Of a DNA stretch of 64,000 bases, positions 30,076-52,702 are shown in pieces. Position 1 is the first letter of the stretch, and each line of letters begins with the position of its first letter. Both the position numbers and the translations under genes were made by a program. The stretch spans positions 2,604,001 through 2,668,000 of the forward strand of contig NZ_AP017558.1 in assembly GCF_002355635.1 (NCBI RefSeq), read 5' to 3'. The notes below the pieces were generated by a model, which had not been told where the DNA came from, did not search any database, and saw nothing but the letters and a program-made list of their open reading frames with translations. The DNA comes from Halopenitus persicus (GTDB taxonomy: Archaea > Halobacteriota > Halobacteria > Halobacteriales > Haloferacaceae).

Positions 30076-30085
30076 ATCCTTAAGA
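30076..30085 (+). promoter_or_regulatory. TATA element of the rps15 transcript
   Basis: TCCTTAAGAG places the expected transcription start at about 30105-30110, exactly at the base of the long helix described in the next entry. It therefore predicts a 5' leader of about 130 nt. Confidence 0.6.
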
Positions 30086-30106
30086 GGCTCGGCGGGAACT
30101 CACTCG

Positions 30107-30230
30107 TGGGAACAGCACAGCCGTAAATCCGACTCGCCGGGGCACTCGCCCACGGCTCGGGATTGCGGCAGTGCGCCGCGAGTCCCTCCGGGGACCCGCG
30201 GTCACGCTTTTGCGGTTGTGCCGTTCCAAT
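30107..30230 (+). ncRNA. Highly structured rps15 leader or independent small RNA
   Basis: Bases 30109-30123 pair with 30213-30227 in a 15-position helix with one A-C mismatch and one G-U pair. Inside are two hairpins. A (30126-30164) has AATCC.GA pairing with TCGGGATT, then GCCG/CGGC and GGGC/GCCC. B (30176-30201) has CCGCG-GTCCC around a TCCG loop, with one mismatch. Together they make a three-way junction of about 120 nt. It starts at the predicted transcription start and ends 11 nt before the rps15 ATG. It could be an autoregulatory ribosomal-protein leader or a processed small RNA; I do not recognise the family. Confidence 0.55.
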
Positions 30231-30238
30231 GACAGACA

Positions 30239-30706
30239 ATGGCACGAATGCATACACGCCGCCGTGGCTCGTCCGGTTCGGACAAGCCCGTGGCAGACGA
30301 CTCGCCGGAGTGGAGCGACGTCGACGCCGAGGACATCGAGTCCCGCGTCGTCGAACTGTCCGAACAGGGCTACGACCCCAGCCAGATCGGAATGAAACTG
30401 CGTGACGAGGGCGTGACCGGCACGCCGATCCCGGACGTCAAGCTGGCGACCGGCAAGAAGGTCACCGAGATCCTCGAGGAGAACGACGCGGGCTCGTCGG
30501 TCCCCGAGGACTTCCGGAACCTCGTCGAGCGCGCGGTCCGGCTCCGTGAACACATGGAGGAGAACCCGCAGGACCACCAGAACAAGCGGGCGCTCCAGAA
30601 CACGGAGTCGAAGATCCGCCGGCTCGCCGACTACTACCGCGGCGACCAGCTCGCCGAGGACTTCACGTACACCTACGAGAACGGCGTCGAGCTCCTCGAG
30701 GAGTAA
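30239..30706 (+). CDS. rps15: 30S ribosomal protein S15
   Basis: A 155-residue S15 of the archaeal/eukaryotic S13 type. MARMHTRRRGSSGSDKP opens the protein, EQGYDPSQIGMKLRDE lies in the middle, and the S15 helical core DHQNKRALQNTESKIRRLADYY is at about residues 112-133. It binds 16S rRNA in the small-subunit platform. It heads a cluster rps15-recJ-like-pcc1-rps3Ae. The long structured leader suggests post-transcriptional control. Confidence 0.96.
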   Translation: MARMHTRRRGSSGSDKPVADDSPEWSDVDAEDIESRVVELSEQGYDPSQIGMKLRDEGVTGTPIPDVKLATGKKVTEILEENDAGSSVPEDFRNLVERAVRLREHMEENPQDHQNKRALQNTESKIRRLADYYRGDQLAEDFTYTYENGVELLEE

Positions 30707-30751: not shown

Positions 30752-31990
30752 ATGACCGAACCCGCGACCGCATCCGGCACGACGCCTGACACGATCGCCG
30801 GCGTCGTCCGCGACGCGCCGTTCATCCGGCTCGTCGCCCGCGACGACGGCGATTCCCTCGCAGCGGCGGCGCTGCTCGCGGCGGCCGCACGCGGCGTCGG
30901 CACGCCGTTCCAGATCCGGATCCATCCGGATCCGACCGGTTCGATCCGCGACGCGGTCGACACCGCGGAGCCGGAGCGGTCCGGAGGAAGCGGTGACGAG
31001 GTCCATCTGCTCGTGGGCGCCGATTTGCCCGATCGGCCGACCGCATCGGCGGTCGAGTCCTACGGGCTCGAGAGCGACGGCCGCCCCGCGAGCACCGCGG
31101 CCTTCGCCGTCGGGACCGAACTCGGAGTCGATCCCGATCCCGTGCTCGCGCTCGCCGGCGTCGTCGCCGCCGGTTCCGTTCCGGGAACGGACGGGTCCGG
31201 GGACGCGCTCGACGTCGCGACCCGCCGTCAGCTCGTCGAACGGCGCCCCGGACTCGCCGTCCCGAATCCCGAGACGGAGACCGGGCTGGCGACCGGGATC
31301 GCCGCCTCGACGCTGTTCCACGCCCCCTACTCGGGCGACCCCGACGACGTTCGGGAGGCGATCGGAACGGACGTCCTCGCGGACTCCGACCGCCGCCGGA
31401 TCGCGTCGACGGTCGCGGTCGACGTGGTTGCGCCCGAGACGGCGACGCCACAGGCGTCCGCCGCCGTCGAACGCGCGCTGCGCCCCTACGCGACGACCGG
31501 TCCCGTGGGGACCGTCGGCGGCTACGCCGACGTCCTCGACGTGCTCGCACGCGAGGCACCCGGGACCGGGATCGCGCTCGCGCTCGCCGGCACGGACGGA
31601 TCCGACGTGGACGACGATCTGCGATCGGCCGCGCTCGAGACGTGGCGGGCACACGGCACGGCCGCCCACGCGGCGGTCGCCGAGGCGACGACGGCGCGAT
31701 ACGACGGCGTCTCCGTCGCCCGCGTGTCCGCACCGGCGTCGACGCTACCCACCGTCGCCCGGCTGCTCAGCGCGTACCGCTCGCCGGAACGGGTCACGCT
31801 CGTCGTCGACCCGGAGACGGGCCGGCTGGCCGCCGCGGCCGCCGACCCGGCCGGCGTTGGCGCCGCGCTTCGTCACGCCGCCGCCGAGCTCGACGGCACC
31901 GGTTGGGGCGGCCCGACGCGCGGCGGCGCGCAGGTTTCGATCGACGACGACGGTGCGGCCGTGATCGCGGCCACGAGGGAGGCGCTATGA
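30752..31990 (+). CDS. RecJ-like (DHH superfamily) protein with degenerate motifs
   Basis: A 412-residue protein occupying the position of the RecJ-related gene found beside rps15 and rps3Ae in archaea. The N-terminal RDDGDSLAAAALLAAAA resembles the RecJ motif-I region and LLVGADLPD resembles motif II. The defining DHH triad and later catalytic Asp residues are not visible, so nuclease activity is doubtful. It may be a structural, Cdc45/GAN-like partner (inference). The start is 45 bp after rps15; the stop overlaps the pcc1 start by 4 bp. Confidence 0.75.
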   Translation: MTEPATASGTTPDTIAGVVRDAPFIRLVARDDGDSLAAAALLAAAARGVGTPFQIRIHPDPTGSIRDAVDTAEPERSGGSGDEVHLLVGADLPDRPTASAVESYGLESDGRPASTAAFAVGTELGVDPDPVLALAGVVAAGSVPGTDGSGDALDVATRRQLVERRPGLAVPNPETETGLATGIAASTLFHAPYSGDPDDVREAIGTDVLADSDRRRIASTVAVDVVAPETATPQASAAVERALRPYATTGPVGTVGGYADVLDVLAREAPGTGIALALAGTDGSDVDDDLRSAALETWRAHGTAAHAAVAEATTARYDGVSVARVSAPASTLPTVARLLSAYRSPERVTLVVDPETGRLAAAAADPAGVGAALRHAAAELDGTGWGGPTRGGAQVSIDDDGAAVIAATREAL

Positions 31991-32538
31991 ACGGCCACGG
32001 GGCCGACGACGAGTCCGCGGATGGCCCCAATGGTGCCGCAGACGGCTCCGACGACCGCGCAGTGGGTTCGTCCAGGGGTTCGCCCAGGACGGCGCTGGTC
32101 CGGACCGAGCACGACGATCCGGCGCTCGTCCGGGACGCGCTGGCGCCCGACAACACCGACTCGATGGACGCGCGCGTCGACGGCGACGCGGTCGTTTGTG
32201 CGATCGAGCGGGAGACGACCGGCGGGCTGCAGTCGACGGTCGACGACTACATCGTCAACCTTCGGGTTGCCGACCGTCTCGTCGCTCGCGGCCACGAACA
32301 CCGACACGTCATCGGGGACGATCGGGATCGCGCCGATCGAGTGCACGCCGATCAGGATCGACGGACGGACGGGACGAACGGGCACACGACCGACGCAGAC
32401 GCAACCGACGCAGACGCAACCGACGCAGACGCAACCGACGCAGACGCAACCGACGCAGACGCAACCGACGCAGACGCAACCGACGCAGACGCAACCGACG
32501 CAGACGCAACCGACGCAGACACGACACACCAGACATGA
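31987..32538 (+). CDS. pcc1: KEOPS complex subunit Pcc1 with long acidic repeat tail
   Basis: A 183-residue protein. The Pcc1 domain spans about residues 35-110 (RTALVRTEHDD, ALAPDNTD, VCAIERETTGGLQSTVDDYI, NLRVADRL). Pcc1 is the dimerisation subunit of KEOPS, which makes the t6A modification of tRNAs reading ANN codons. The N-terminal 33 residues are acidic. The C-terminal 46 residues are nine TDADA-type pentapeptides from a 15-bp DNA repeat, far longer than the usual Pcc1 of under 100 residues. ATGA overlaps couple it to both neighbours. Confidence 0.88.
   Translation: MNGHGADDESADGPNGAADGSDDRAVGSSRGSPRTALVRTEHDDPALVRDALAPDNTDSMDARVDGDAVVCAIERETTGGLQSTVDDYIVNLRVADRLVARGHEHRHVIGDDRDRADRVHADQDRRTDGTNGHTTDADATDADATDADATDADATDADATDADATDADATDADATDADTTHQT
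32391..32520. repeat. 15-bp minisatellite in the pcc1 tail
   Basis: Eight perfect copies of GCAACCGACGCAGAC (32401-32520) follow a partial copy (32391-32400), with no sequence divergence. This implies very recent expansion. Each unit adds five residues (TDADA) and keeps the frame; the array ends 14 bp before the rps3Ae start codon. Confidence 0.97.
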
Positions 32539-46259: not shown

Positions 46260-46433
46260 ATGTTCAGCCGCACCCGACACGCGATCCGATTCGGCCTTCA
46301 CCAGCTAACCGTCACCCTCGGAATCGCCCTGTTCCCGATCGTGCTCGCCGCCCGCAGCGCCGGATTTCCGGTCCCGATCCCGATCGGCCGGCTCGTTCGA
46401 GCAACGGGTGCGGCTTTTAAGACCGCCGAGTGA
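46260..46433 (+). CDS. Small single-span membrane protein
   Basis: A 57-residue protein with a basic N-terminus (MFSRTRHAIRFGLH), one hydrophobic helix (about 15-36, LTVTLGIALFPIVLAARSAG) and a Pro-rich then basic tail. It has no motif that I recognise. The TATA element, the Shine-Dalgarno-like GGGAG and the normal codon composition support a real gene despite its size. A block of tandem 22-bp repeats begins at its stop codon. Confidence 0.55.
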   Translation: MFSRTRHAIRFGLHQLTVTLGIALFPIVLAARSAGFPVPIPIGRLVRATGAAFKTAE

Positions 46434-46510
46434 CCGTCGACCGCCCATTGGCCGACCGTCGACCGCCCATTGGCCGACCGTCGACCGCCCATTGGCCGAC
46501 CGTCGACCGC
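46432..46510. repeat. 22-bp tandem repeats upstream of psmB
   Basis: About 3.6 copies of CCGCCCATTGGCCGACCGTC plus GA run from the stop codon of the small membrane protein gene. Each unit contains a GTCGAC palindrome and an ATTGG (CCAAT) motif. The block ends about 135 bp before the psmB TATA element, and a diverged unit (ATGGGTCGCCCATCGGCC) follows it. Confidence 0.85.
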
Positions 46511-51927: not shown

Positions 51928-51970
51928 CGGGACCGTCGATTTCGACCCCGTGAGTAGGCCTCCCCGGCGT

Positions 51971-52334
51971 CGTCCTCGAACTCCATCGCGACCGAGTTGA
52001 TACAGAACCGCTTCCCGGTCGGCTCCGGTCTCGCGTCGGACCGGCTCCGCCGGCCCGACTGACTCACGCTCGCTGGCGCTCGCGTGAGCGTCGTCGAAGA
52101 CGTGACCGAGCAGACTCCTCTACTCGTCCTCGAACTCCATCGCGACCGAGTTGATACAGAATCGCTTCCCGGTCGGCTCCAGTCTCGCGTCGGACCGGCT
52201 CCGCCGGCCCGACTGACTCACGCTCGCTGGCGCTCGCGTGAGCGTCGTCGAAGACGTGACCGAGCAGACTCCTCTACTCGTCCTCGAACTCCATCGCGAC
52301 CGAGTTGATACAGAACCGCTTCCCGGTCGGCTCC
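51971..52334. repeat. Tandem 154-bp duplications of the msrB 3' end
   Basis: The last about 60 bp of msrB (encoding EPTGKRFCINSVAMEFEDE and its stop) are present three times with an exact 154-bp period: inside the gene (ending 52274) and in two downstream copies beginning near 52120 and 51971. The two downstream copies differ at about two positions. Between the copied tails lies about 60 bp not found in msrB, with a CTCACGC/GCGTGAG inverted repeat, plus a copy of the GTCGTCGAAGACGTG segment of msrB. They are out of frame with msrB and not translated by readthrough. Confidence 0.93.
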
Positions 52335-52702
52335 GGTCCGTCGTCGAAGACGTGGCCGAGATGGGAGTCGCAGTTCGCACACCGGACCTCGGTTCGGCGC
52401 ATCCCGTGGCTCGTGTCGAGCTGCGTCGTGACCGCGTCGTCCTCGGCCGCGTAGAAGGCCGGCCAGCCGCAGCCGGAGTCGTATTTCGTGTCGGCGTCGA
52501 ACAGGACCGTCCCGCAGGCGCCACACCGGTAGACGCCGTCGGCGTCGTGGTCGACGTACTCGCCGGAGAACCGGGCCTCGGTGCCGGCCTCCCGGAGGAT
52601 CCGGTACTCCTCCTCCGAGAGCCGTTCACGCCACTCCTCGTCGGTCAGTTCGGTCGGGTCGACGTCCCCGGCGGGACCGGAATCGGCGGTGGTATCGCTC
52701 AT
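52274..52702 (-). CDS. msrB: Peptide-methionine (R)-S-oxide reductase MsrB
   Basis: A 142-residue MsrB that repairs oxidised methionine. The catalytic Cys is in GKRFCINSVAM near the C-terminus. Two CxxC zinc motifs are CGAC and CANC (about 61-64 and 107-110), and the substrate motif SGCGWPAFY is at about 76-84. The N-terminal 40 residues are acidic. The ATG at 52702 is the family start. Its 3' end is duplicated downstream; the intact copy contains all active-site residues. Confidence 0.95.
   Translation of the reverse strand: MSDTTADSGPAGDVDPTELTDEEWRERLSEEEYRILREAGTEARFSGEYVDHDADGVYRCGACGTVLFDADTKYDSGCGWPAFYAAEDDAVTTQLDTSHGMRRTEVRCANCDSHLGHVFDDGPEPTGKRFCINSVAMEFEDE

Follow-up and report, generated by a model that had tools for sequence, protein, structure and literature searches.

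To our knowledge, archaea have a small number of cis-regulatory RNAs, and how most of them work is not understood. The described system closest to the element considered here is the S15-Halobacteria leader (Rfam family RF03143), which was predicted by comparative genomics (Eckert & Weinberg 2020, PMC7247131). The genes it regulates are given there as rpsO, recJ, and rps3ae, and mimicry of rRNA by the leader is proposed, with the mechanism of regulation left unsettled. A second family of the same clan (CL00121), the S15-Methanomicrobia leader (RF03137), has the same presumed ligand and gene and carries the words GUCCGAC and CUUGGGAUU, but its secondary structure is another one. Bacterial rpsO (S15) leaders also combine autogenous S15 control with rRNA mimicry (PMC7247131); their structures, however, are unrelated, and no sequence match to them was found in the leader studied here. 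In the case of the archaeal L7Ae leader, a ribosomal protein has been proposed to refold its own mRNA leader and thereby regulate translation (PMC6298567), but that leader is a k-turn element bound by L7Ae, and the accessible part of the paper describes no comparable competing strand.

The window is a stretch of 64,000 nucleotides from Halopenitus persicus. An original prediction, made from its letters, placed a compact three-way-junction RNA just upstream of rps15 and read it as either a ribosomal-protein autoregulatory leader or a processed small RNA. The Rfam search suggested along with that prediction returns RF03143 well above the gathering score (76 bits compared to 49; E 4.5e-17), and the match has the same element, hairpin, and gene context as the published family. 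It is the sole Rfam family to reach threshold in the window leader, and this genome holds one copy. The family is found in 288 of the 292 Halobacteria genomes, and it is present in Haloferax volcanii too. This match, the position upstream of rps15 across Halobacteria, and two strands that resemble 16S rRNA (Table 1) point, at the level of sequence, to the autoregulatory leader; no feature in favor of a processed small RNA was found. The identity of the element as an autoregulatory S15 leader is therefore already known and not new.

Table 1. Features of the rps15 leader and its surroundings in the window.
Feature	Position	Strand	Remarks
TATA-like promoter element CTTAAG	30079-30084	+	29 nt upstream of G30108 (GGGAA)
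RF03143 S15-Halobacteria leader hairpin	30106-30174	+	State 1, A:B; Rfam covariance model, 76 bits
Strand A, GGGAAcaGCACaGCCGUAAA	30108-30127	+	Common to both folds; the transcript is expected to begin here
Internal loop, one side: AUCCGAC	30127-30133	+	Identical to positions 687-693 of the genome's own 16S
GGCUCGGGA, opposite side of the internal loop	30154-30162	+	One base off GGCUUGGGA of the genome's own 16S, 588-596
Strand B, GAUUGCGGcAGUGC	30161-30174	+	Partner of A in state 1
Middle hairpin	30176-30201	+	Sequence and length vary among relatives
Strand C, GCGGuuGUGCcGUUCC	30212-30227	+	Outside the Rfam model; partner of A in state 2
Region D, first eight rps15 codons	30239-30262	+	Predicted partner of freed C (fold prediction only)
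rps15 (uS15)	30239-30706	+	Regulated gene and presumed ligand; 155 aa; Pfam PF08069, PF00312; uS15 chains in PDB

The published RF03143 model stops at strand B and lacks both strand C and the A:C helix. Neither of these, nor a two-state design, is described in the main text of PMC7247131, and within the open-access literature they appear to be new. In state 1, the Rfam hairpin, the portion of A at 30115-30127 (GCAC and GCCGUAAA) pairs with B at 30163-30174. In state 2, A pairs instead with C, which ends 11 nt before the ATG. State 2 is the junction of the original prediction, and its particulars hold. The 15-position helix joins 30109-30123 to 30213-30227; its only mismatch is A30114 x C30222, its only G-U pair is G30120-U30216, and its predicted spacing of 11 nt from the ATG at 30239 is correct. 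The three-way junction is also the minimum free energy (MFE) structure of 30107-30230, at -76.1 kcal/mol compared to -51.3 +/- 3.8 in dinucleotide shuffles (z = -6.6, with 0 of 200 shuffles as stable). The transcript had been predicted to begin at the edge of the helix, and the TATA spacing fits a start at ~30106-30108. The distance from the TATA-like box to GGG is 28-30 nt in most of ~190 relatives, so that a transcript beginning at GGG fits in the relatives as well as in the window. What does not stand is the junction as a single structure. Since A is used by both A:B and A:C, the two folds are mutually exclusive, and the second fold of the 5' strand, the Rfam hairpin, was overlooked although it is equally conserved and almost equal in energy. 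The junction is one conserved fold of two.

Strand C is conserved across the class Halobacteria. Among 189 leaders extracted from Halobacteria genomes, essentially all carry it just upstream of the start codon; the distance from A to C varies widely, and the leaders range from ~92 to 283 nt in length. The UUCC of C is invariant (172 of 172 leaders) and complements the GGGAA of A, which is itself invariant in 166 aligned leaders and unpaired in the Rfam fold. The second base after UUCC is likewise always A (172/172; UUCC(A/U)A, at 30228-30229 in the window), and in some groups the motif often runs on as UUCCUAUCCUC. No pairing partner was identified for this A, which possibly makes a tertiary or ribosome contact. 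One of the four genomes without an RF03143 match is truncated at a contig edge, with B and C still there. In the other three, deep-branching members of two families, the leader was not found, and rps15 lies closely behind another reading frame. Codon 3 of rps15 in these three genomes is CGT or AGA, not CGA.

The conservation of the two helices was measured on an anchored alignment of 166 leaders. The coding sequences supplied the tree, and the expected counts derive from the spectrum of substitutions in columns that do not pair. Canonical pairs make up 98.0% of A:C and 98.1% of A:B, compared to 25-45% in controls in which A:C was slid out of register. On the tree, 61 of the 85 one-sided substitutions in A:C retain a standard pair where 37.7 are expected (z 5.9), and all 31 of those in A:B do so where 16.5 are expected (z 5.3). 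Both sides of A:C changed on four branches, including G-C to A-U exchanges in either direction at the GCAC/GUGC end. The compensatory changes that the original prediction had proposed as a check on its helix are thus found as events on the tree. By a G-test with a phylogenetic null, on the other hand, no individual column pair of A:C is significant (with APC), and the best A:B column pair reaches E 0.03. The G-test has low power for A:C, as the helix is near-invariant and few of its columns vary, and event counts were used instead.

Strength of pairing points the same way. The A:C duplex averages -24.5 kcal/mol over 99 distinct pairs, compared to -12.2 with shuffled C. When the partners are re-dealt among leaders, the mean is -23.5 +/- 0.2 kcal/mol, and none of 10000 deals is as low as the native value (z -5). 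For 56 leaders the RNAalifold consensus is A:C (-34.8); masking C brings out the Rfam fold (-30.6), and masking B leaves A:C (-27.7). Two conserved helices share strand A, as a two-state RNA switch would require.

The two states are also close in energy. Computed for 37 C and standard salt rather than molar KCl, the ensemble energies with A:C forbidden and with A:B forbidden differ by a mean of 1.3 kcal/mol over 175 leaders. When the A:B core is enforced, the median difference between the states is 0.95 kcal/mol (5th-95th percentile -3.9 to +6.8), and in the window leader the two states stand at -89.5 and -88.7. Such near-isoenergetic states provide the balance that a ligand-driven switch needs.

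The likely ligand is suggested by the internal loop of the A:B hairpin. Its two 16S-like words, GGCUUGGGA (588) and AUCCGAC (687) in the rRNA, presumably fall on strands h21/h22 and h22/h20, respectively, of the S15-bound junction. The hairpin resembles the S15-binding junction of 16S, in line with the rRNA mimicry put forward in PMC7247131, and from this likeness we infer that S15 binds it. We lean towards a reading, built on these models, in which the leader is a two-state switch: S15 would stabilize A:B, the freed C would repress the rps15 start, and A:C would form otherwise. Excess S15 would bind the hairpin as a mimic of the 16S h20/h21/h22 junction, and C, once freed, would fold onto the first rps15 codons and hinder the initiation of translation. 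Once S15 has been taken up into ribosomes, B would give way to C, the invariant GGAA/UUCC pairing likely serving as toehold, and the start region would become more open as A:C forms.

Fold predictions allow for an effect of C on the start. With A:C forbidden, C tends to pair with the first part of rps15, and the expected number of its pairs in the coding sequence is 11.7, compared to 1.7 with A:B forbidden. The cost of opening positions -3 to +12 is 8.1 kcal/mol when C is free, 4.4 when C is held in A:C, and 6.0 when C is free but shuffled (9.7, 3.9, and 6.7, respectively, in the window). Across 147 leaders, opening costs more with the native free C than in the A:C state in 91%, and more than with shuffled C in 80%. 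Pairing of the AUG triplet itself does not rise in state 1 (unpaired 0.50 vs 0.46). As the title of one study has it (PMC3986360), Haloferax volcanii does not use Shine-Dalgarno sequences to initiate translation at 5' UTRs, which makes structure in the start region a reasonable point of control. Codons 2 and 3 of rps15 are GCA and CGA in 160/160 and 158/160 cases. They had been considered as support for the pairing of C with the start and were dropped, since eL15, whose product also begins M-A-R, is equally fixed (GCA CGA in 19/19) and the rps15 start codons are therefore not independent support. Haloarchaeal M-A-R genes (rps15 and eL15) almost always use GCA CGA, compared to 19% and 7% for these codons elsewhere in rps15.

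Of course, the same helices can be read in other ways. Under the opposite polarity, A:C would be the OFF state and A:B the ON state, with S15 acting on A:C or via entrapment. The ribosome would then be blocked by a helix of very high stability right in front of the ATG, and A:C, at ~-24 kcal/mol and ending near the start codon, might indeed hinder ribosomes by itself; state 2, moreover, does not expose the AUG triplet any further. We consider this polarity unlikely, as the 16S-like words and their long stem belong to A:B, negative feedback needs the S15-bound form to be OFF, and the start region opens more easily in state 2 in the great majority (91%) of leaders. The alternative pairing could also govern termination within the leader rather than translation. 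Methanomicrobia leaders have a stretch rich in U, also noted in PMC7247131, close to their C strand, and this would suit such attenuation. In the window leader, however, neither C nor B is followed by a U-run, and C adjoins the start codon in Halobacteria, which leaves transcriptional control a very small share of the probability.

Both Rfam and PMC7247131 model A:B only, and it could be that this hairpin alone is functional, with C kept for another purpose, such as contact with the ribosome or an initiation factor, and its complementarity to A a by-product. The invariant bases of UUCC(A/U)A that have no partner in A would agree with this. It seems improbable to us, however, given that A:C is 98% canonical against 25-45% in the slid controls, that substitutions which keep its pairing exceed expectation, and that a similar complementary strand of different sequence occurs in Methanomicrobia. 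The converse, a static three-way junction as the sole functional fold, draws on the MFE of 30107-30230 and the alifold consensus, but the competing A:B has its own curated family, strongly conserved pairs, and 16S-like words. As for the processed small RNA, C sits close to the ATG of rps15 in all relatives, a position that suits a leader and not a free RNA. We rate this explanation, in either form, as highly improbable.

The Methanomicrobia leaders deserve a closer comparison with the two-state switch proposed for Halobacteria. RF03137 lies upstream of rps15 in 144 of 149 Methanomicrobia genomes, and in many of these leaders a strand downstream of the modeled region, and so outside the Rfam model, complements the 5' strand (GGACUUAC vs GUAAGUCC). 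Unlike its counterpart in Halobacteria, this C strand usually follows a pyrimidine- or U-rich run and is usually farther from the ATG. The duplex averages -14.2, compared to -8.2 for shuffled downstream sequence, and matched partners pair better than re-dealt ones (z -6.6, 0/5000). Without interruptions, the longest helix has a mean length of 9.5 bp compared to 6.1, and there are two-sided matching changes, for example, GCAAAUCC with GGAUUUUGC. A convincing C strand is absent from a few members. We would give even chances to the idea that both archaeal S15 leader families follow one unrecognized design, that of two-state switches in two classes, in which a downstream third strand competes for the 5' strand, by way of the GGAA/UUCC toehold in Halobacteria. 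The finding suggests a 3' extension of the Rfam models RF03143 and RF03137. A conserved competing strand also offers a concrete mechanism, one that can be tested in the genetically tractable H. volcanii. Elsewhere in the same phylum, six rps15 upstream regions from non-halobacterial members have a common motif, CUUCGC(C/A)A, mostly in short hairpin-like contexts and with no Rfam match. It is possible that these regions are a further type of S15 leader.

The closest relatives of the S15 protein among named organisms are those of Halopenitus. Downstream of rps15 in the window is rps3ae, identified by Pfam. The open reading frame between the two at 30752-31990 has no Pfam match, and its identity as recJ is putative. 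Between this recJ-like frame and rps3ae, another reading frame contains a perfect 15-bp tandem repeat (ACCGACGCAGACGCA) at 32389-32520, with 8.8 copies and 100% matches, that encodes a tail of TDADA repeats. The window also holds a 154-bp tandem repeat at 51970-52346 (2.4 copies, 97%) and a perfect 22-bp tandem repeat at 46432-46510 (3.6 copies).
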